Below are positions 4,484 to 28,084 of a stretch of 28,084 nt of DNA, in pieces. The notes under the pieces were generated by a model. The model did not search any database, had not been told where the DNA came from, and was given only the letters and a program-made list of their open reading frames with translations. This DNA comes from a virus. The stretch spans positions 1-28,084 of the IMG/VR virus record IMGVR_UViG_3300025264_000082; one strand, 5' to 3'. The first letter of the stretch is position 1. Every line of letters begins with the position of its first letter. The position numbers and the translations under genes were made by a program.

Positions 4484-4818
4484 TACTCCATCTCCGTAAA
4501 GTAAAGGGTATCATCCTCGATTAATTCTTTTAAATGAGAATAGATAATATCCTTAATTGTTATGTAAGGTTCCCCATCTAAACCACTAGGTACGTTAAGG
4601 GTTAAAAGTATTTGATAAGTTTTTTCCATTACTCCATTTGTTATATCAGACTCCAGAACATCAACAAAATTATCATATTCATCCTTCTCCATCTCTTTCT
4701 CTGTTAAAGTTTCAGCTTCGAGTTCTGCCTTGTTTACATCCTTATGTAGTGCCAGCATTTTTTCTAAATGCTTTTCATAAAGAGTTTCATATAAAGCATC
4801 GTTGTATTGGTTACTCAT
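4483..4818 (-). CDS. Hypothetical two-part phage protein carrying the DEYDNF cassette
   Basis: This 111-residue protein has a helical N-terminal part (MSNQYNDALYETLYEKHLEK). Next comes the 16-residue cassette DEYDNFVDVLESDITN at about 47-62, shared exactly with the gene at 174-386. The C-terminal part (TYQILLTLNVPSGLDGEPYI) looks like a separate small phage domain. A Met right after the cassette (VMEKTYQ) could mark an older start, so the gene may be a fusion. AGGAG precedes the ATG. Function unknown. Confidence 0.7.
   Translation of the reverse strand: MSNQYNDALYETLYEKHLEKMLALHKDVNKAELEAETLTEKEMEKDEYDNFVDVLESDITNGVMEKTYQILLTLNVPSGLDGEPYITIKDIIYSHLKELIEDDTLYFTEME
4636..4683 (-). repeat. 48-bp exact repeat, copy 2 (in-frame peptide cassette)
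   Basis: Identical to 234-281 over 48 bases and read in the same frame as 16 codons in a different protein, about 4.4 kb away. Confidence 0.95.
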
Positions 4819-5603: not shown

Positions 5604-5936
5604 CTACTTACTATTTTTGCAACGAATACGCCATACCCTAATGCCGCCCGTTACTTTTCGATAGGCCATTCTAAATTTAGAATTCCACCGTTTAGTATAA
5701 TTAGAACCAGCATTACTAACTCTGGCTCCAAATTTATCTTGAGTAATAGGCGAACAGGGTATTAGAAAGGAATCGCCTACCTTCATGTCATGAAATGGAT
5801 ACATTCCGGTGTATCCATCAATATTATTGTTATGCCAAGTTGGAATCGGCACACCTTTTTCTATAGTAAACCGATTTGTTTTCTCTACTACAACTTGATC
5901 ATCGTTTTCTTCTTTAACAAAAGCTAAAGTATTCAT
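5604..5936 (-). CDS. Small phage protein with YPFxxMxVGDSF motif
   Basis: This 110-residue protein carries IEKGVPIPTWHNNN, YPFHDMKVGDSFLIP (about 46-60), an NAGSNYTKRWNSKFRMAYR segment and a C-terminal IRVWRIRC. This order is that of a widespread small phage family of unknown function. Similar proteins sit near replication or accessory genes in many phages. The gene is preceded by the 48-nt alternative-hairpin leader (5943-5990), which also precedes the ParB-fold gene. The Shine-Dalgarno AGGAG is 8 bases before the ATG in both cases. Confidence 0.75.
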   Translation of the reverse strand: MNTLAFVKEENDDQVVVEKTNRFTIEKGVPIPTWHNNNIDGYTGMYPFHDMKVGDSFLIPCSPITQDKFGARVSNAGSNYTKRWNSKFRMAYRKVTGGIRVWRIRCKNSK

Positions 5937-5942
5937 AGTTAC

Positions 5943-5990
5943 TACTCCTAAAGGTTAGGGGAAATTGTGTCAGCCTTTCCCCATAGGCTG
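5943..5990 (-). promoter_or_regulatory. Alternative-hairpin leader, copy 1
   Basis: On the minus-strand RNA, hairpin A pairs CAGCCT (5990-5985) with AGGCTG (5976-5971). Hairpin B pairs GGGGAAA (5982-5976) with TTTCCCC (5964-5958) around an 11-base loop. The left arm of B lies in the loop of A, so only one can form. AGGAG follows at 5949-5945, eight bases before the ATG at 5936. The first half overlaps the last codons of the HNH gene (QPMGKG-stop). A near-identical copy stands at 8101-8148. Confidence 0.7.
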
Positions 5991-6554
5991 TCTTCTCGTA
6001 AAATGTTTAGGAAAGTACAGTTCGCCGCCGTTCATTCGTTTAGCATGGTTGCAGTTGGCACATAGTAATTGGTAGCGATCCGGTTCTTGTAAGTAATGCC
6101 TTAACTCTATGGATGGTGCGTTGTTTCCATCTCCCGAATAATCGGCATCGTTTTCTATATGGTCTATTTGAAAAAAGATGCTGTCTTTTTCTCCGCAATT
6201 AACACATTGGTTGCCCATCATCTTGAACATTTCCTTGCGTTGGCGAGCTACTCTAAGCTTTCTTCCTAGCTTTTTGTGATGTTTCCTACACAATCCGCTG
6301 TCTAATTTTCGCACGTTACCATTACCCCGAATAGGCTCATCACAATCTTCTAACTTACATATACCTCGCACCACACTGGTTGAGCATGGATGACAACAGT
6401 AATGATTGGCTCTTTCATGGCGTGATTTAACACCAGCCCTATTGAATACCTTTTTACAGTCAGGGTTATCGCATTGGAATGTCCACTTATAACCTGTCTG
6501 AGTTATTGACCCTTTGCCACTTTTATATTTGTAAGGTTCTTTTTTAAGTATCAT
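5970..6554 (-). CDS. HNH endonuclease with zinc knuckles
   Basis: This 194-residue protein has an N-terminal C2H2-like finger (CDNPDCKKVFNRAGVKSRH, residues 28-46), further Cys/His pairs up to residue 92, and an HNH nuclease core. In the core, CVNC (117-120) and CANC (165-168) bind the structural zinc, and DH (131-132) and N/H (169-170) form the beta-beta-alpha-metal active site. Such free-standing HNH genes in phages act as homing endonucleases or as nicking enzymes linked to packaging. Its place in the early arm, away from the terminase, favours a homing or accessory role. AGAGGTGA precedes the ATG. The 3' end is part of the alternative-hairpin leader. Confidence 0.88.
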   Translation of the reverse strand: MILKKEPYKYKSGKGSITQTGYKWTFQCDNPDCKKVFNRAGVKSRHERANHYCCHPCSTSVVRGICKLEDCDEPIRGNGNVRKLDSGLCRKHHKKLGRKLRVARQRKEMFKMMGNQCVNCGEKDSIFFQIDHIENDADYSGDGNNAPSIELRHYLQEPDRYQLLCANCNHAKRMNGGELYFPKHFTRRQPMGKG

Positions 6555-6563
6555 ATGTCACCT

Positions 6564-6944
6564 CTAGAATTCAACGCCGTTACCTACATCAGCAACGGTA
6601 AGTCCATGTTCCTTCCACATTCTGATTACAGATGGGCGGTCATCAAATGCCATGACCGGATTGAATCCTTTACTATTTCCGGTTGCAAAGACACGCCCTA
6701 CACTTGGGTCTGGGTCTGGCGGATAGCCTGGAAATTTTACATCTGGACTCCTGATAATTTCCAGCATCTCTGCCTTCACTTCAGTGTCAGGTCTGTAGTC
6801 CTTATCCTTACGCACCCTCTTACCTAACTTACTTCCGGTGTCAGGCTTAATGAATTTGTAAGGATAGGTTAACGGATCATGTACATTTTTCTGGTACATG
6901 GTCTGACCGTTCATGATAGCTCGATGATCGGATGATAGTTTCAT
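6564..6944 (-). CDS. C-terminal fragment of a HAD-type polynucleotide 3'-phosphatase
   Basis: This 126-residue protein ends with FDDRPSVIRMWKEHG (about 100-114) and VADVGNGVEF. These match the C-terminal motif of the T4 Pnkp phosphatase domain (DDRxxVVxMWRxxG...V..GDF). RPDTEVKAEMLEII (51-64) matches the segment just before it in that domain. The catalytic DxDGT motif and the kinase P-loop are absent. By sequence it should therefore be inactive alone, unless another protein supplies the first half. The N-terminal 40 residues do not match this family. It has a normal start with GAAGGGAT upstream, so it is probably expressed. Confidence 0.6.
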   Translation of the reverse strand: MKLSSDHRAIMNGQTMYQKNVHDPLTYPYKFIKPDTGSKLGKRVRKDKDYRPDTEVKAEMLEIIRSPDVKFPGYPPDPDPSVGRVFATGNSKGFNPVMAFDDRPSVIRMWKEHGLTVADVGNGVEF

Positions 6945-6945
6945 G

Positions 6946-7107
6946 TTACTTTATCCCTTCTATTACTATTTTAGCTGCTTCCAGCCGTCTCTCTTCTTCT
7001 TTTGTATTCAACCATTGGCACATGGTTAAGGCAAGTATCATGTTATGAATTGCCCAACGTGGCTGATTGCCAATGATCCGTTTAGCTTCTTGATATGTCA
7101 TACTCAT
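6946..7107 (-). CDS. 53-aa helical phage micro-protein
   Basis: This small gene begins MSMTYQEAKRIIGNQPRWA and has a second helix NTKEEERRLEAAKIV. I recognise this TYxEAKRIIGNQPxWAIxNM pattern as a small family found in many marine phages, without a known function. GAGGAG lies nine bases upstream of the ATG chosen; an ATG two codons on is a less likely start. The next gene starts within 6 bases of its stop. Confidence 0.75.
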   Translation of the reverse strand: MSMTYQEAKRIIGNQPRWAIHNMILALTMCQWLNTKEEERRLEAAKIVIEGIK

Positions 7108-7110
7108 ACC

Positions 7111-7350
7111 TTACTCCTCGTTGTGATAGAATTCCTTACGGATAATTCTGGTTCTATCTTGCCAGACACATCTGATACCTTCCCTTAAAATAGTTAAGGT
7201 CAGCATCAATTGGTGTTTGATACCCTTATTCCAGTTACATATCCAATCAAAGTATGGAATAAACAGAACCGGAACGAGCCAGTCCATACTATCTCTATGA
7301 TAGTATTCCCTGCCCCATTGGTCATTGGATTTTCTGATATCGTAAGCCAT
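7111..7350 (-). CDS. Hypothetical tryptophan-rich protein
   Basis: This 79-residue protein has a hydrophobic, aromatic middle (DWLVPVLFIPYFDWICNW) that could be an amphipathic membrane-associated helix, followed by a basic part (DRTRIIRKEF). Its ATG follows the stop of the ParB-fold gene directly, with GAAGGGAAG as ribosome site, so the two are likely translated together. No family recognised. Confidence 0.65.
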   Translation of the reverse strand: MAYDIRKSNDQWGREYYHRDSMDWLVPVLFIPYFDWICNWNKGIKHQLMLTLTILREGIRCVWQDRTRIIRKEFYHNEE

Positions 7351-8094
7351 TTACTTCCCTTCCATTTTATAAATTTCCTTAAGCATATCGGTACGCTTCC
7401 CCAATATGTTAAGCTTGTGCTTCTTGGTTGTCAAGTTCTTCTTAAACTTTTCAAAGTCAAAGCTTACATTCTGTAATGCTTCCAGCATAGCCGATTGAAA
7501 CTGCTGTTTTGAATAGGTAGATTTATCTAACGGCGGGTTCTTTCCTATACCTTTTAATTGGGCCAATTGCCTGACCGTTCTAGATACATGATCTAGATGA
7601 TCAAGTGTCAGATTCCCTTCTTTAAATTGTTTACTATCTGACTGTAGTCTACCGCTTTTCTTATTAAATATAGACACTAGTACTCCATAGCTAATGTAAG
7701 GATGTTCTGCCTTAACCTTATTGTATATTTTATAAGGTGTCCTACCCATTACAGCCCAGTAGTTAGCAAAGTCTCCATCATCCCAGTTTCTCTGATTGGT
7801 ATTGATAGCTATCATGTTCTCGTACATATGAGATACCTGCATGACATAGTACGGGATGCCAAGGGCTGTTGCTGCTAGATACCTATGGTGTCCTTCACGG
7901 ATTTTACCGTACCTATCCACAAGGATTGGTACATCTTTCAAAGCCGAACCCTTATTCTTAAAGCTCTCGATCAGGTTCGCCAAGTGACCGCTCTTTACTA
8001 TTCGTTGAGTTTTATGTGGCCTAAGTTCACGGTATAGTGGTGACTTGTCTGTCACTTCATAGACAGTCCGTTCTACTTTTAATTGTGTAAACAT
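7351..8094 (-). CDS. ParB-fold (ParB/Srx-like) phage protein
   Basis: This 247-residue protein has a ParB-type N-terminal domain. It includes VPILVDRYGKIREGHHRYLA (56-74, with the family's GHHR phosphate-binding box), then ATALGIPYYVMQV. A family-typical NTNQRNW segment and a helical C-terminal half follow. Chromosomal ParB proteins bind CTP here, while phage relatives include nucleases and regulators. There is no ParA partner and no visible helix-turn-helix for centromere binding, so a partition role is unlikely. It is preceded by copy 2 of the alternative-hairpin leader, with AGGAG 8 bases from the ATG. Confidence 0.8.
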   Translation of the reverse strand: MFTQLKVERTVYEVTDKSPLYRELRPHKTQRIVKSGHLANLIESFKNKGSALKDVPILVDRYGKIREGHHRYLAATALGIPYYVMQVSHMYENMIAINTNQRNWDDGDFANYWAVMGRTPYKIYNKVKAEHPYISYGVLVSIFNKKSGRLQSDSKQFKEGNLTLDHLDHVSRTVRQLAQLKGIGKNPPLDKSTYSKQQFQSAMLEALQNVSFDFEKFKKNLTTKKHKLNILGKRTDMLKEIYKMEGK

Positions 8095-8100
8095 ATTGTT

Positions 8101-8148
8101 TACTCCTAAAGGTTAGGGAAATTGTATCAGCCTTTCCCCGTTAGGCTG
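8101..8148 (-). promoter_or_regulatory. Alternative-hairpin leader, copy 2
   Basis: Hairpin A pairs CAGCCT (8148-8143 on the minus strand) with AGGCTG (8133-8128). Hairpin B pairs GGGAAA (8138-8133) with TTTCCC (8121-8116) around an 11-base loop. The two exclude each other, as in copy 1. AGGAG (8107-8103) is again 8 bases before the ATG (8094). Here most of the element lies after the stop of the upstream gene, so its conservation is not due to coding. Confidence 0.7.
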
Positions 8149-8344
8149 TCTTGTTTATAAATGGTTTCTCCTTTTTAACTACCAGTTCTCCCCTTTCATC
8201 ATAGGTTATATTCTCCAACGGTGTATCATAAGGCAACGTTGAATTAAGATAAAGATGAAGCAGCTTAGATAATTCGTAATCCTGTTCAATTACGATACTC
8301 TTTATTGCTATTCCATCTTTATTTGTTGTTTTTACTACCGACAT
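8141..8344 (-). CDS. Small hypothetical protein
   Basis: This 67-residue protein begins MSVVKTTNKDGIAIKSIVI and has a helical middle (DYELSKLLHLYLNS) and a short beta-rich end (DERGELVVKKEK). The start at 8344 was chosen because GGAAGGAG lies six to seven bases upstream; the frame is open for 27 more codons, but those overlap the gene before it. Function unknown. Confidence 0.7.
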   Translation of the reverse strand: MSVVKTTNKDGIAIKSIVIEQDYELSKLLHLYLNSTLPYDTPLENITYDERGELVVKKEKPFINKTA

Positions 8345-8560: not shown

Positions 8561-8580
8561 AAAGTGCATCGATACACTTT
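8561..8580. promoter_or_regulatory. 20-bp near-palindrome, copy 5 (operator candidate)
   Basis: The minus strand reads AAAGTGTATCGATGCACTTT, with a single mismatched pair around a central ATCGAT. It begins one base after the stop codon of the gene at 8581-9057 and lies in the leader of the next gene. The same 20-mer occurs at four other places, all in non-coding DNA; this copy is in inverted orientation. Confidence 0.7.
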
Positions 8581-9073: not shown

Positions 9074-9093
9074 AAAGTGTATCGATGCACTTT
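9074..9093. promoter_or_regulatory. 20-bp near-palindrome, copy 4 (operator candidate)
   Basis: The plus strand reads AAAGTGTATCGATGCACTTT. It lies between the predicted start of transcription near 9112 and the ATG at 9057, where a bound repressor would block elongation from the strong promoter upstream. Confidence 0.7.
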
Positions 9094-10252: not shown

Positions 10253-10336
10253 AAAGTGTATCGATGCACTTTCCGAAGAGATCAAAAGTGTATCGATGCA
10301 CTTTCCGAATAGATCAAAAGTGTATCGATGCACTTT
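10253..10336. repeat. Three near-palindromes at exact 32-bp spacing (iteron or operator array)
   Basis: AAAGTGTATCGATGCACTTT occurs at 10253-10272, 10285-10304 and 10317-10336. The start-to-start distance is 32 bp in both cases, close to three helical turns, so bound proteins would line up on one face. The spacers are also conserved (CCGAA, then AGATCA or TAGATCA-like sequence), making this a 32-bp tandem repeat. Two single copies occur at 9074 and 8561. Confidence 0.85.
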
Positions 10337-21021: not shown

Positions 21022-21702
21022 ATGGTTGCATATTCATATCTTAAAACGGATATTATTCAAACTTCTGAAAACGATTCTACCGAATTTGCCAGTGCAATTT
21101 CATTCTTTGTAGATCGTACAGAGTTACGCTTACTTAAAGATCTGGATGATGTTGGGTTAAACGAATATACCAGTATTACTTTTACTGTAAGTAATCCTGT
21201 TGTTAGTTTAAATGATAGAGTTCATATTGTTCGTAATGTGAACTATACAACCAGTGCGTCCAGTCTTAAGACAAGCCTTCTTAAACGTACTTATGAATAT
21301 GCTATAGATTACTGGCCTTATGTCAGTTCTTCAGTAGGGACACCCAGATATTATGCTAGAAAAAATAATACTTCTATCTATGTCGTACCCACTCCTGCTT
21401 CTACTTTATCAGGAGAGGTTCAAACAGTTTCTAGACCTTTACCTTTAGCTTCAGCTACAGGTACAAGTGCAACAACTCAAAATTATTTTAGTGACTATTG
21501 TTATGATGCTCTTTTTGCAGGATGTATGCAAGAAGCTACCATGTTTATGAAGGATTGGAATACCCTTCCGGTCTGGCAGACACAGTATCAAACAGCTATA
21601 GCAGCATTACGTAATCAGGCTAGAAGGACTAGACAGGATGATATGGCAGTTGCTGCTTCTCCTGCCGGTGGTCCCGATACCATAACACAGGGAGCAAGTT
21701 AA
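21022..21702 (+). CDS. Head-tail adaptor or tail tube-type protein
   Basis: This 226-residue protein has the helix-rich start (STEFASAISFFVDRTELRLL), a beta-rich centre with RTYEYAIDYWPYVSS and TPRYYARKNNTSIYVVPTPA, and a helical C-terminal part with MQEATMFMKDWNTLPVWQTQ. This matches, by eye, adaptor proteins of podoviruses that attach to the portal. The ATG follows two bases after the previous stop. The last base overlaps the next ATG. Confidence 0.65.
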   Translation: MVAYSYLKTDIIQTSENDSTEFASAISFFVDRTELRLLKDLDDVGLNEYTSITFTVSNPVVSLNDRVHIVRNVNYTTSASSLKTSLLKRTYEYAIDYWPYVSSSVGTPRYYARKNNTSIYVVPTPASTLSGEVQTVSRPLPLASATGTSATTQNYFSDYCYDALFAGCMQEATMFMKDWNTLPVWQTQYQTAIAALRNQARRTRQDDMAVAASPAGGPDTITQGAS

Positions 21703-21752
21703 TGTCAGCAAAAAGAAAAGGAACTAAAAAAGGTGTATCAGCTTTTATTGAT
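21702..21752 (+). repeat. 51-bp near-exact repeat, copy 1 (shared N-terminal tag)
   Basis: The first 17 codons (MSAKxKGTKKGVSAFID) match those at 23249-23299 in 50 of 51 bases. The rest of the two genes differs, apart from a similar KHGG-containing end. Confidence 0.92.
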
Positions 21753-22154
21753 AAAGCATTAGGTATATCTAAGAAGAAGAATATGCAAAAACCACTTCCA
21801 GATGATCCTAATATTGGTAATGTACCTAAAAAAAGAGGTGAGTTACGTGATCGGATTGAAGCAAAAACAGGAGAGCCTTTAGAAACAACATTAAAAAAGG
21901 CTGGTTTAGATAATGATGTTATAGAAAATATAATAAGACCTCATAAATCAACTATAACTGCTGCTCAAAATAGAGCTAGAATAAAAGCTTTACAAAATAA
22001 GAATAAAACGAAAAATAAAAAATCTAAGACATCTTCTGTTACAGGTATGTCAGCAACTTTTCCTAAACATGTAGGTGTAACAGCTAAAAAACATGGCGGT
22101 AAGATTACCTATAAAATGTCAGGCGGTCAGGTAGTAGATGCAGGATACGATTAA
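21702..22154 (+). CDS. Lysine-rich protein with shared N-terminal tag
   Basis: This 150-residue, very basic protein starts with the tag MSAKRKGTKKGVSAFID, also found at the start of the LysM protein. The middle is helical (GELRDRIEAKTGEPLETTLK) and the C-terminus reads AKKHGGKITYKMSGGQVVDA then GYD, similar to the LysM protein's end. Basic proteins of this type may be packaged with DNA inside the capsid. Its 3' end overlaps the next gene by 17 bases. Function unknown. Confidence 0.7.
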   Translation: MSAKRKGTKKGVSAFIDKALGISKKKNMQKPLPDDPNIGNVPKKRGELRDRIEAKTGEPLETTLKKAGLDNDVIENIIRPHKSTITAAQNRARIKALQNKNKTKNKKSKTSSVTGMSATFPKHVGVTAKKHGGKITYKMSGGQVVDAGYD

Positions 22155-23248: not shown

Positions 23249-23299
23249 ATGTCAGCAAAAGGAAAAGGAACTAAAAAAGGTGTATCAGCTTTTATTGAT
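23249..23299 (+). repeat. 51-bp near-exact repeat, copy 2 (shared N-terminal tag)
   Basis: Matches 21702-21752 in 50 of 51 bases; the one difference changes Arg to Gly at codon 5. Confidence 0.92.
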
Positions 23300-24064
23300 G
23301 CAGCAGTAGATACAACTAAAAAAGGTAAACCTAAAGTTAAAACAAATGGTAAACCTAAAGATTTTACATCTTATGATACACCTAAAGTTAAAGAAACATT
23401 AGAGGATATGGGAAAACCTCCTTCTCAAAGGAAGGTTGATGCTACAGGAACAAAGAGAAAGAAACCTGTTGTTGCAACAAAGACAAAGGGTCGTCCTAAA
23501 ATTCCTGTAACAACTCCTCCTGTTAAAAAAGGTAAAATGGGTAAAATTGCTAAAGGTATGGCAATAACAAGTCCTGCATGGTTAGGTCCACCTGCATATG
23601 TTGCATATAAGGAAATGAAACGTCCTAAATCTCATAAAGTTACATCAGGACAGAATCTTTCTAGTATTGCTAAAAAATATGGAACAACTATAAAAGCTAT
23701 TATGAAAGCTAATCCTAGTATCAAGAATGCGAATTTAATACGAATAGGACAAAATATTAAATTACCTTTCTTTGGACGAGGAAAAGATCCTTATAAAGGA
23801 ATGTCTAAATCAGAAATGGCAAAGCTTCATAAAGAAACTCAAGCAAGAAAAGCAAAAAGAGTTTCTAAAAAACAGACTGGAGGTAGAATGAGTAGAATAG
23901 GACTTTCTCCAGCAGAGATGGCAAGGGCTGGTACAATGTCTGAAGCTAAACGTAAACGGTATGTGAAAGGTGGTGGTAAAGTTGGTAAGAAGAAAGGCGG
24001 TACTGTTAATCGTAAACATGGCGGTCAAATAGGAACAGCCTATATAGCGAATTTATATGACTAA
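23249..24064 (+). CDS. LysM domain protein with shared N-terminal tag
   Basis: This 271-residue protein starts with the tag MSAKGKGTKKGVSAFID, then a Lys/Pro-rich linker, and has one LysM domain at about 128-174 (SHKVTSGQNLSSIAKKYGTT through IRIGQNIKLPF). LysM binds peptidoglycan sugar chains. No hydrolase domain follows; the rest is a basic, glycine-rich tail ending in NRKHGGQIGTAYIANLYD. It is therefore more likely a virion protein that contacts the cell wall during DNA entry than an endolysin. Three codons overlap the next gene. Confidence 0.8.
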   Translation: MSAKGKGTKKGVSAFIDAAVDTTKKGKPKVKTNGKPKDFTSYDTPKVKETLEDMGKPPSQRKVDATGTKRKKPVVATKTKGRPKIPVTTPPVKKGKMGKIAKGMAITSPAWLGPPAYVAYKEMKRPKSHKVTSGQNLSSIAKKYGTTIKAIMKANPSIKNANLIRIGQNIKLPFFGRGKDPYKGMSKSEMAKLHKETQARKAKRVSKKQTGGRMSRIGLSPAEMARAGTMSEAKRKRYVKGGGKVGKKKGGTVNRKHGGQIGTAYIANLYD

Positions 24065-25389: not shown

Positions 25390-25713
25390 ATGGCTACTCA
25401 TAAAAATGCATTAGCTCAATGTGATACTTGTGGATTTGTATATCCATATAGAGTTATGAGGATGAATAGCTATGGATTACTAGTATGCCCAGAAGATTTT
25501 GAAGGACAATATGATTTAAAAAATAATCCTCAGAATAAAGTACCTAATGTAAAAGATGATCCTGCTATTAGAAATCCACGGCCTGATACAGGAGGAAGAG
25601 GTATAACATGGGATGAAACAGCTACATGGATAACTGTTAATCCCACAACTCTGGTAGAAACAACACATACAACTAAGTATGATGATGCTAATAAAAGTTG
25701 GGATGGAATATGA
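25390..25713 (+). CDS. Small zinc-binding tail-region protein
   Basis: This 107-residue protein has CDTCGFVYPYRVMRMNSYGL followed by VCPEDFEGQYDLKN. The CxxC plus a later Cys suggests a small metal site (about residues 11-37). The rest is polar with RNPRPDTGGRG. I have seen this CDTCGF...CPxDFEGxYDLKN pattern next to tail genes in marine phages. Its stop overlaps the fibre start (ATGA), so it is probably made together with the fibre. Confidence 0.75.
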   Translation: MATHKNALAQCDTCGFVYPYRVMRMNSYGLLVCPEDFEGQYDLKNNPQNKVPNVKDDPAIRNPRPDTGGRGITWDETATWITVNPTTLVETTHTTKYDDANKSWDGI

Positions 25714-28084
25714 CAGATTTAACAGGAAAATTAATATCAGGTACTTATAAGCAACTATTATTAATTAATTCTAGTACGACTAATAGTGGAGTAACTTCTT
25801 CTATTACCAGTGTTCAGACAGGAGATGGTACAGGAACTGCTCTTAATGTGGGAACTGGTGGAGTTATAGTTTCTGGAAATATAGGAGCAACAGGAAATAT
25901 TAGTGTAAGTGGAGGCTTGTTAGTAAAGAATAAGGTCTGTGCTTCTGCATATTATGGAGATGGTTCTAATATTACTGGAATTACAGCTACAATAGGCGGT
26001 AATATATCAGTTAGTAATGTTATAGTTGGTGGAACTTTATCTGTAGTAGGGGCCGCTGTTTATAAGTCTAGTGTTACAGTAAGCGGTGCTGTTAATCTGG
26101 GAAGTACATTAACTGTGGCAGGAGCTACAAGTCTGGCTTCTACATTAGATGTGGCTGGTAATGCTTCCATTGGAGGAACACTTACAGGTACTGGAAATGT
26201 AGTATTTGATGGTGATGTGTCTGTTAGTGGAGAATTAAATGTAAATGAGAATGTTTCAGTAGGAGGTACATTTGTAGCAACAGGTGCAGGGACTTTTAAT
26301 TCTAAGACAGAATTTAATGATGCTGTTTCTATAAGTGGAAATTTGGATGTAGCTTCAGCAGCTTCTATAGGAAGTACTCTCAAGGTAACAGGGGTTGCAA
26401 GCTTTTTAACAGATGTGTCTATCAGTGGTAATACTAATGTTGTTGGAAATGTAACGGCTGCTTACTTTTATGGAGATGGTTCTAATCTAAGTAATGTAGA
26501 AGCAGAATTAGGTGTTACTACAAATATTTCTGTATCTGGTTTTATACATGCAGGAGGAAGTGTTTCTGTATCTGGTCCTTTCAATGTTATAGGAGCAGCT
26601 ACATTTCAGGACAATGTCTCAGTAAGTGGTAATGTAAATATTACAGGAACAGCTACAATCGCTGGGGCTGCTTCAATAGGTGGTGCTGTAAGTATAGGTG
26701 GTGCTGTAAATCTATTAAGTACAGCTACAGTTTCTGGTGCTACAGGATTTTTAGGAACAGTCAGAGTAAGTGGAGCTACTTCTCTTGCTTCTACTCTAGA
26801 TGTAGCTGGTAATACCTCTATTGGAGGGACAGCACAGATAACAGGTAATGCTAACTTTGATGGTGATGTTTCTGTTAGTGGAGATGTTTCCATAGGTACA
26901 AATTTATATGTTGGTGGAACTGTTACAATAGTAGGAAATACTACTATGACAGCCAATTTAGGTGTAGGTGGTACTTTTGGTGTTGTAGGAAATGTAAGTT
27001 TAGGAGCTAATGTAACTGTTAAAGGAGATGTACATGTTAGTAGTAAAGTATGTGCTTCTGCTTTCTATGGAGATGGAGCTAATTTAACAAATGTTCCTAT
27101 AGATATTACTGGGAATATATCTGTTGGTAATGCAACTGTAGGTGGAAATCTCTTTGTAGGAGGTACAGTTACTGCTATTGGTGCTGCTTTATTTAATAGC
27201 ACTGTAACTGTTTCAGGTAATGCTACATTTAAAACAGATGTATCTGTAAGTGGAAATACCAGACTTGGAGGTACAGTAACTGTTGGAGGTGCAGTTAGTT
27301 TAGCTTCTACTCTAAGTGTAGGAGGGGCTGCTAATTTTGCTAGTACTGTTACTATAGTAGGAATAGGGACATTTAAAGATGATGTCTCTGTAAGTGGTAA
27401 TACTAATTTATTAGGAACAGTCACTATTGGTGGTGCAGTTAGTTTAGCTTCTACATTGAGTGTAGGAGGAGCTACAAATTTAGCAAGCACTGTAACAGTT
27501 GTTGGTATTGGTACATTTAAGGATGATGTATCTGTAAGTGGTAATACTAATTTATTAGGTACAGTTACTGTTGGAGGTGCAGTAAGTCTTGCTTCTACTT
27601 TAAGTGTTGGAGGTGTAGCTAATTTTGCTGATACTGTTACTATTGGAGGAGCTGTTAGTATTGCAGGAGCTTTAAGTGTTGGTGGTGCTACTAATTTACT
27701 TAGTACAGCTACAGTTTCAGGTGCTGCTGGTTTTCTGGGAACAGTTAGAGTAAGTGGAGCTACTAGTTTAGAAGCTGCCGTAGTAATGAAAAGTACGGCT
27801 ACTGTAAGCGGTGCTGCTGGATTTTTAACTACAGTACGAGTAAGTGGTAATACAACTATAGGAGGAACTTTAGATGTAGCAGGTAATGTATGTCTAGGAG
27901 GTAATGTAACTATTAAAGGAGATGTACATGTAAGTAGTAAAGTATGTGCTAGTGCATTTTACGGAAATGGAGCTAATATAACAGCGATTGGTGTTTTAGC
28001 TAATGATCAGGCTTGGACTGGCTCTCAAAGAGGAACACCAACAACCGATAACGATGGCTCATTTGATATGAATGCAGCAAATAA
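25710..28084 (+). CDS. Tail fibre / tail spike protein, partial (3' end outside window)
   Basis: An open frame of 791 codons runs off the window end. The N-terminus (MTDLTGKLISGTYKQLLLIN) probably attaches to the tail. The rest consists of about 16-residue beta repeats of the form TVTVGGAxSLASTLSVGGA, which suggest a beta-helix or beta-prism shaft. The collagen-like GDGSN motif (YYGDGSNITG and variants) recurs near residues 82, 254, 452 and 751, dividing the shaft into modules. Near the end a new domain begins (NDQAWTGSQRGTPTTDNDGS), so the receptor-binding tip lies beyond the window. It is probably the host-recognition protein. Confidence 0.88.
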   Translation, partial: MTDLTGKLISGTYKQLLLINSSTTNSGVTSSITSVQTGDGTGTALNVGTGGVIVSGNIGATGNISVSGGLLVKNKVCASAYYGDGSNITGITATIGGNISVSNVIVGGTLSVVGAAVYKSSVTVSGAVNLGSTLTVAGATSLASTLDVAGNASIGGTLTGTGNVVFDGDVSVSGELNVNENVSVGGTFVATGAGTFNSKTEFNDAVSISGNLDVASAASIGSTLKVTGVASFLTDVSISGNTNVVGNVTAAYFYGDGSNLSNVEAELGVTTNISVSGFIHAGGSVSVSGPFNVIGAATFQDNVSVSGNVNITGTATIAGAASIGGAVSIGGAVNLLSTATVSGATGFLGTVRVSGATSLASTLDVAGNTSIGGTAQITGNANFDGDVSVSGDVSIGTNLYVGGTVTIVGNTTMTANLGVGGTFGVVGNVSLGANVTVKGDVHVSSKVCASAFYGDGANLTNVPIDITGNISVGNATVGGNLFVGGTVTAIGAALFNSTVTVSGNATFKTDVSVSGNTRLGGTVTVGGAVSLASTLSVGGAANFASTVTIVGIGTFKDDVSVSGNTNLLGTVTIGGAVSLASTLSVGGATNLASTVTVVGIGTFKDDVSVSGNTNLLGTVTVGGAVSLASTLSVGGVANFADTVTIGGAVSIAGALSVGGATNLLSTATVSGAAGFLGTVRVSGATSLEAAVVMKSTATVSGAAGFLTTVRVSGNTTIGGTLDVAGNVCLGGNVTIKGDVHVSSKVCASAFYGNGANITAIGVLANDQAWTGSQRGTPTTDNDGSFDMNAAN
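27222..27653 (+). repeat. Three tandem 144-bp repeats in the tail fibre
   Basis: Codons 505-552, 553-600 and 601-648 are three 48-residue repeats (xTFKxDVSVSGNTxLxGTVT and on). Adjacent copies are very similar at DNA level, so recent duplication or unequal recombination is likely. Confidence 0.85.

Follow-up and report, generated by a model that had tools for sequence, protein, structure and literature searches.

Leader pseudoknots of variable sequence before unrelated early genes of a marine phage lineage: candidate elements of translation initiation

Introduction

Translational pseudoknots (gene 32, rpsO, tisB) and start-associated repeats (ESAS, PMC3203893) are both already known. The gene 32 operator of T4, T2 and RB69 is an H-type pseudoknot of ~28-33 nt located 5' of the ribosome-binding site (RBS) of a phage gene (PMC535899, PMC3014915). 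The ORF for the T4 homing endonuclease segG ends within its 5' part and was proposed to have extended into the pre-existing pseudoknot (PMC535899). In a 2010 review, the T4-type gene 32 pseudoknot was regarded as possibly the sole viral example in translation autoregulation (PMC3014915). Other H-type pseudoknots are bound by ribosomal protein S1 at nM affinity (PMC7708055). They include a SELEX ligand, the tisB standby site and rpsO, lie at or upstream of the RBS and have a weak sequence requirement (PMC7708055, PMC10931766). In tisB the pseudoknot is essential for S1/30S standby translation (PMC7708055), and S1 targets are located 5' of the Shine-Dalgarno (SD) sequence (PMC10931766). The SAS/ESAS of cluster K mycobacteriophages is a short inverted-repeat element directly upstream of many unrelated gene starts, common to related phages and of unknown function (PMC3203893).

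The window analysed here is a virus fragment of 28,084 bases from IMG/VR, in which the same leader occurs twice. On comparative and energetic grounds, its copies carry an H-type pseudoknot 5' of the RBS as gene 32 does. As in gene 32, a homing-endonuclease ORF (HNH here) ends within the 5' part of a knot, and some relatives are without the knot. On the other hand, the gene 32 knot lies ~67 nt from the ATG while the knots here lie 16-26 nt from it; there are no UUAAA/UAAA repeats here, the sequences between knot and start codon being UAACCUUUAGGAGUAGUAACU and AACCUUUAGGAGUAAACAAU; the downstream products are DUF7303-like and ParB-like instead of a binding SSB protein; and the element precedes several unrelated genes. 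The leaders here resemble those of S1/30S standby in having an H-type pseudoknot on the 5' side of the SD, but the tisB knot lies ~100 nt upstream of an RBS that is sequestered, whereas our knots abut the RBS, and S1 binding here is putative. Like SAS/ESAS, the element stands directly before unrelated gene starts in related phages. However, SAS/ESAS consists of a fixed SAS (GGGATAGGAGCCC) and a conserved 17-bp inverted repeat, while our leaders read CTTTAGGAG, CGGAG, GAAAGGA and others, with stems unrelated in sequence; what is conserved here is topology, and the pairing is a pseudoknot. In the literature searched, we found no phage lineage in which many unrelated genes are preceded by a leader pseudoknot that is portable and conserved in shape.

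Results

Two copies of one leader

Both copies are on the minus strand, copy 1 at 5943-5990 and copy 2 at 8101-8148. When the whole record was searched by BLAST with copy 1, the sole match was copy 2 (92% over 52 nt, E = 5.6e-16), and shuffled sequences never yielded a 32-mer of copy 1 even when up to 3 mismatches were allowed. The duplication of the leader is real and chance is excluded. As described in the earlier note, the copies differ by two compensating indels, copy 2 having 1 nt more in loop 1 and 1 nt less in the 3' strand of stem 2, and the distance from AGGAG to ATG is exactly 8 nt in both. The copy 1 RNA reads CAGCC-UAU-GGGGAAA-GGCUG-ACACAA-UUUCCCC-UAACCUUU-AGGAG-8 nt-AUG and the copy 2 RNA reads CAGCC-UAAC-GGGGAAA-GGCUG-AUACAA-UUUCCCU-AACCUUU-AGGAG-8 nt-AUG. 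The features, all on the minus strand, are as follows; the pseudoknots are assigned from sequence, pairing and comparison.

5958-5990, minus: predicted pseudoknot of copy 1, whole
5986-5990 (CAGCC) and 5971-5975 (GGCUG), minus: copy 1 stem 1, 5' and 3' strands
5976-5982 (GGGGAAA) and 5958-5964 (UUUCCCC), minus: copy 1 stem 2, 5' and 3' strands
5983-5985 and 5965-5970 (ACACAA), minus: copy 1 loop 1 and loop 3
5945-5949, minus: copy 1 SD AGGAG, separated by 8 nt each from the pseudoknot and from the ATG at 5936
8115-8148, minus: predicted pseudoknot of copy 2, whole
8144-8148 (CAGCC) and 8128-8132 (GGCUG), minus: copy 2 stem 1, 5' and 3' strands
8133-8139 (GGGGAAA) and 8115-8121 (UUUCCCU), minus: copy 2 stem 2, 5' and 3' strands, the outer pair being G-U
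8140-8143 (UAAC) and 8122-8127 (AUACAA), minus: copy 2 loop 1 and loop 3
8103-8107, minus: copy 2 SD AGGAG, with 7 nt between it and the pseudoknot and 8 nt between it and the ATG at 8094
5604-5936, minus: gene behind copy 1, 110 aa 'YPF' protein, DUF7303-like (PF23978)
7351-8094, minus: gene behind copy 2, 247 aa ParB-like protein, PHROG 12305
5970-6554, minus: HNH endonuclease ORF, reaching into the copy 1 pseudoknot with its final codons (QPMGKG*)
8141-8344, minus: small upstream ORF, 67 aa from ATG, with its UAA stop within loop 1 of copy 2

No credible match to these leaders was obtained with the Rfam covariance models at relaxed E-values (5900-8220 of the window and loci L036, L040, L057 and L073). 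A DNA similarity search of the INPHARED phages gave merely two chance-level matches of 25 nt.

A pseudoknot in each copy

It was claimed earlier that each copy holds two mutually exclusive hairpins, A (CAGCCU/AGGCUG) and B (GGGAAA/UUUCCC with an 11-nt loop), which might act as a small switch. Hairpin B and its loop were found as claimed, but the exclusivity is wrong. All that speaks for such a switch is one A common to the two 6-bp hairpins. The loop of hairpin A pairs with the tract 3' of A, and no linker separates the stems. Since A and B overlap by this single A and cross each other, both can form together, with stem 1 read as 5 bp, as an H-type pseudoknot, with stem 1 CAGCC/GGCUG, stem 2 GGGGAAA/UUUCCC[C/U] and a third loop of 6 nt (AYACAA). 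Compensatory changes in relatives, described below, keep both stems in the same molecules, and a switch between A and B is hardly credible.

The stacking energies of the stems sum to -25.5 kcal/mol in copy 1 and -23.8 kcal/mol in copy 2. By a rough nearest-neighbour estimate with a loop cost of 7-9 kcal/mol, which is an assumption and was not computed, the pseudoknot has -16.5 to -18.5 kcal/mol in copy 1 (best nested fold, -12.3) and -14.8 to -16.8 kcal/mol in copy 2 (best nested fold, -11.4). Under this assumed cost, the knot gains ~3-6 kcal/mol over the most stable nested structure of the same 57-nt stretch. Each copy is read as an H-type pseudoknot of ~33 nt, a predicted structure that is well supported by comparison. 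Its 3' end is 7-8 nt before the SD and ~20 nt before the start codon in both copies.

Genes overlapping the knots

The genes behind the two copies are unrelated, as noted before. The first half of copy 1 also codes for the C-terminus of the HNH protein (..QPMGKG*), with the stop directly after stem 1, while the first half of copy 2 is mostly non-coding, the upstream ORF (..NKTA*) terminating within the element. In L005 and L027 the HNH ORF is absent, yet the same pseudoknot and the YPF gene are present. In L011 an unrelated ORF of 93 codons ends with QPSGKG* at the same place. The HNH gene apparently ran into an already existing knot.

Next to the HNH ORF, a chimeric ORF at 6564-6944 (minus strand) was observed, in which an N-terminus matching a 223-aa ORF of L003 (9070-9741) is joined to a C-terminus that matches polynucleotide kinase (PF25109) at its HAD phosphatase end.

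Close relatives and gene exchange

Of 2.9 million viral contigs scanned with a pattern, three matched, and homologue searches added more. Among copy 1, copy 2, L003, L005 and L011, substitutions and indels are confined to loops 1 and 3 or preserve the outer pair of stem 2, which is G-C, G-U or A-U. The flanks are combined differently from contig to contig. L003 has the copy 2 leader and the same upstream ORF followed by the YPF gene instead of ParB, L005 has copy 1 and YPF with the HNH gene missing, and L011 has the element and the ParB gene with an unrelated upstream ORF. For example, copies 1 and 2 are 94% identical in the leader with unrelated flanks; copy 2 and L003 are 98.7% identical upstream with unrelated genes; copy 1 and L005 are 100% identical in leader and gene with unrelated upstream sequences. 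A second leader type, 87-93% identical, precedes different genes in L013 (ParB), L030 (MTTN gene), and L033 and L036 (MSSI gene); L013 and L033 are 91% identical upstream, and their genes are unrelated. Near-identical leaders with swapped flanks indicate a module around which genes are exchanged, and these comparisons show the leader as a portable module swapped between genes.

The earlier note had offered a mosaic-exchange linker as a simpler explanation, that is, a short shared sequence at gene borders serving as a crossover point only. Leader identities of 87-100% between sequences whose flanks differ (copy 1/copy 2, copy 2/L003, copy 1/L005, L013/L033 and L013/L036) agree with it, and the part that places a junction of gene exchange here stands. 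Compensatory stem changes, pseudoknot topology and fixed start-codon spacing are not predicted by a pure linker, however, and the diverged relatives described below share no sequence to recombine through, so that we regard the linker as quite unlikely to be the whole explanation.

Repeats of other kinds were also observed in the window. A 72-nt segment (DEYDNFVDVLESDITN) at 210-281 and 4612-4683 is common (86%) to two otherwise different small proteins, which is another sign of module exchange within genes. Two genes of the structural region open with the same 74 nt (21702-21775 and 23249-23322, 89%) and then diverge. A 20-bp palindrome, AAAGTGYATCGATRCACTTT, occurs in five copies (8561-8580, 9074-9093, 10253-10272, 10285-10304 and 10317-10336; 0.01 expected), three of which make up a 32-bp tandem array that separates the early genes from the terminase; the palindromes look like an operator or replication-origin iterons. 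From 25698 to 28084 there is a long ORF of imperfect periodic repeats of ~36-48 nt (VSGATSLASTLDVAGN type), probably a tail fibre. Outside the window, on the minus strand of L053 (starts 6154 and 6420), two related small genes follow leaders that are nearly identical and contain a long palindromic structure, which is an independent leader duplication.

Distant relatives

Eighty terminase-selected loci were examined for distant relatives; a terminase scan of genome contigs gave no relative, and tblastn of the ParB and NKW proteins against the INPHARED phages gave none. Before ParB homologues of 31-33% amino acid identity (L073, L078, L081 and L104, and L143), the same topology was found with unrelated stems. 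In L073, L078 and L081 the leader reads ACGGC-CUAAA-GGUGUA-GCCGU-AUUCAA-UACACC or a variant, pairing ACGGC/GCCGU with GGUGUA/UACACC. Any knot with a loop 3 of A[C/T]NCAA occurs at only seven sites on both strands of the ~1.9 Mb of first related loci, and all seven directly adjoin an RBS on its 5' side.

The 'NKW' family, with a 70-aa protein, has the canonical knot in 12 of 23 leaders by scan, and L117, with a longer loop 3, was added by eye. The 12 forms contain 136 stem pairs with 0 non-standard pairs and up to 5 standard pair types per position, a count (like the multi-family one) from structure-fitted alignments in which non-forming homologues were left out. In the independent MAFFT alignment A7 of seven sequences, 96% of cells pair, compared with at most 53% when it is slid; owing to the low variation among the seven, a column-wise shuffle on A7 did not reach significance (120/500). 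The same knot in completely different letters suggests that the folded shape is being kept: as far as the predicted pairings go, the relatives show topology conserved while stem sequences are replaced. The claim that conservation acts on the nucleic acid holds, as compensatory changes preserve pairing in relatives, which displayed neither uncompensated stem breaks nor a mere random duplicate of this genome. Conservation at the gene level was refuted in part, L049/L050 and the YPF genes of L057 and L041 having no pseudoknot leader.

Several NKW leaders (L057, L119, L044, L117, L040/L118, L047 and L137) were also seen to have a near-perfect hairpin of ~20 bp resembling an RNase III site, either directly upstream of the pseudoknot or replacing it. 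The scores of L144 and L047 probably come from the long upstream hairpin and not from a knot.

Enrichment and spacing

In 2519 distinct leaders from related phages, 37 scored at least 29 compared with 3.0 in dinucleotide shuffles, and 21 scored at least 30 compared with 1.3. The density is ~4.5 times higher in leaders (36 per 274 kb) than elsewhere (112 per about 3.85 Mb, some of these non-leader pseudoknots being reverse complements of leader matches). The 3' end of the knot lies 16-26 nt before the ATG in 34 of 44 cases compared with 26 of 80 shuffled ones (p = 1.5e-6). These counts show that the predicted pseudoknot is enriched in leaders and that its spacing from the start codon is constrained. 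Four named, more distant phages had no pseudoknot leaders at scores of at least 27, which means that the scanner does not report such knots everywhere.

When leaders were chosen by homology of their genes alone, 8 of 18 ParB leaders scored at least 24 (0.17 expected), although the one from L030 is perhaps a plain hairpin; for YPF the figure was 4 of 7 (0.2 expected), with one doubtful positive. Homologues with no pseudoknot leader were found for every gene (ParB 10/18, NKW at least 9/23, YPF 3-4/7), which means that the knot is not essential to a given gene.

Discussion

We consider that the element probably represents a portable translation-initiation pseudoknot, of a class used before several unrelated early genes of a marine phage lineage, and we infer that it affects how the gene that follows is translated. 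The earlier proposal of a small switch or a protein-binding site co-regulating both genes survives in its second half: a protein-binding or mRNA-level role is plausible, while the A/B switch is unsupported.

How the knot would act is less certain. The 30S subunit may use it, by way of ribosomal protein S1, as a compact place to dock or stand by, a proposal with a reasonable chance of being right though well short of probable. The position of the element is the one at which mRNA comes into contact with S1 and the 30S platform, and such docking would explain the kept architecture and spacing, the free sequence and the indifference to the gene served. In its fullest form, which we put forward only tentatively, a portable pseudoknot of free sequence but fixed shape and spacing would be an S1/30S landing module behind which genes are exchanged, and phage messages would thereby capture host ribosomes without any conserved sequence.

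The main rival to S1/30S docking is an operator of the T4 gp32 type, in which the pseudoknot would be bound by a phage-encoded RNA-binding repressor shutting off a set of early genes. The closest phage precedent is indeed a ~28-nt pseudoknot 5' of an RBS, two copies per genome before different genes (the window, L057, L067 and L119) fit a shared regulator, and loop 3 tends to A-Y-N-C-A-(A) despite unrelated stems. However, the stems and much of the loops are wholly different between relatives, loop 3 is not universal (UUGA, UGAU and AUGAU occur), and UUAAA repeats are absent from the interval between pseudoknot and start codon. No candidate repressor was found, and the predicted NKW fold (pLDDT 78) had no significant structural match in PDB and viral models. 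We therefore rate an operator as rather unlikely.

The hairpins of the NKW leaders bear on another alternative, namely that the knot serves mRNA processing or stability as a compact 5' barrier shielding the downstream message from decay. With an RNase III-type hairpin of ~20 bp directly upstream, as in L057, L119, L044, L117 and L118, the knot would become the 5' end. This role is nevertheless improbable, as the copies in the window are intercistronic and have no such upstream hairpin, and a fixed distance to the ATG is unnecessary for stability.

A last alternative concerns the SD itself: pairing of CCUAA with the UUAGG of the SD would compete with the pseudoknot, which would be the ON state. 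(C/U)CUAA is present in all 8 of the pseudoknot- or hairpin-bearing UUAGGAG leaders compared with 2 of 36 others, and the nested fold of both window copies contains a CCUAA-CCU-UUAGG hairpin. These leaders represent only about three independent lineages, however, a total of 10 where 5.3 would be expected is weak, and the motif is absent from NKW leaders. Modelling is unsupportive, as the nested folds (constrained partition function) gave no consistent pseudoknot effect on SD accessibility and no consistent rise in its predicted value. Such a switch is possible in a subset of leaders and very unlikely as the general explanation.

For the phages concerned, leader pseudoknots before several gene families appear to be lineage-wide, with compensatory evolution in the knot and gene swapping behind it. 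Covariance searches limited to sequence-conserved, nested structures miss regulatory RNA of this kind in phages. The case also illustrates how homing endonuclease ORFs end up overlapping regulatory knots. If confirmed, these leaders would be natural and varied test cases for S1/30S reading RNA shape over sequence.
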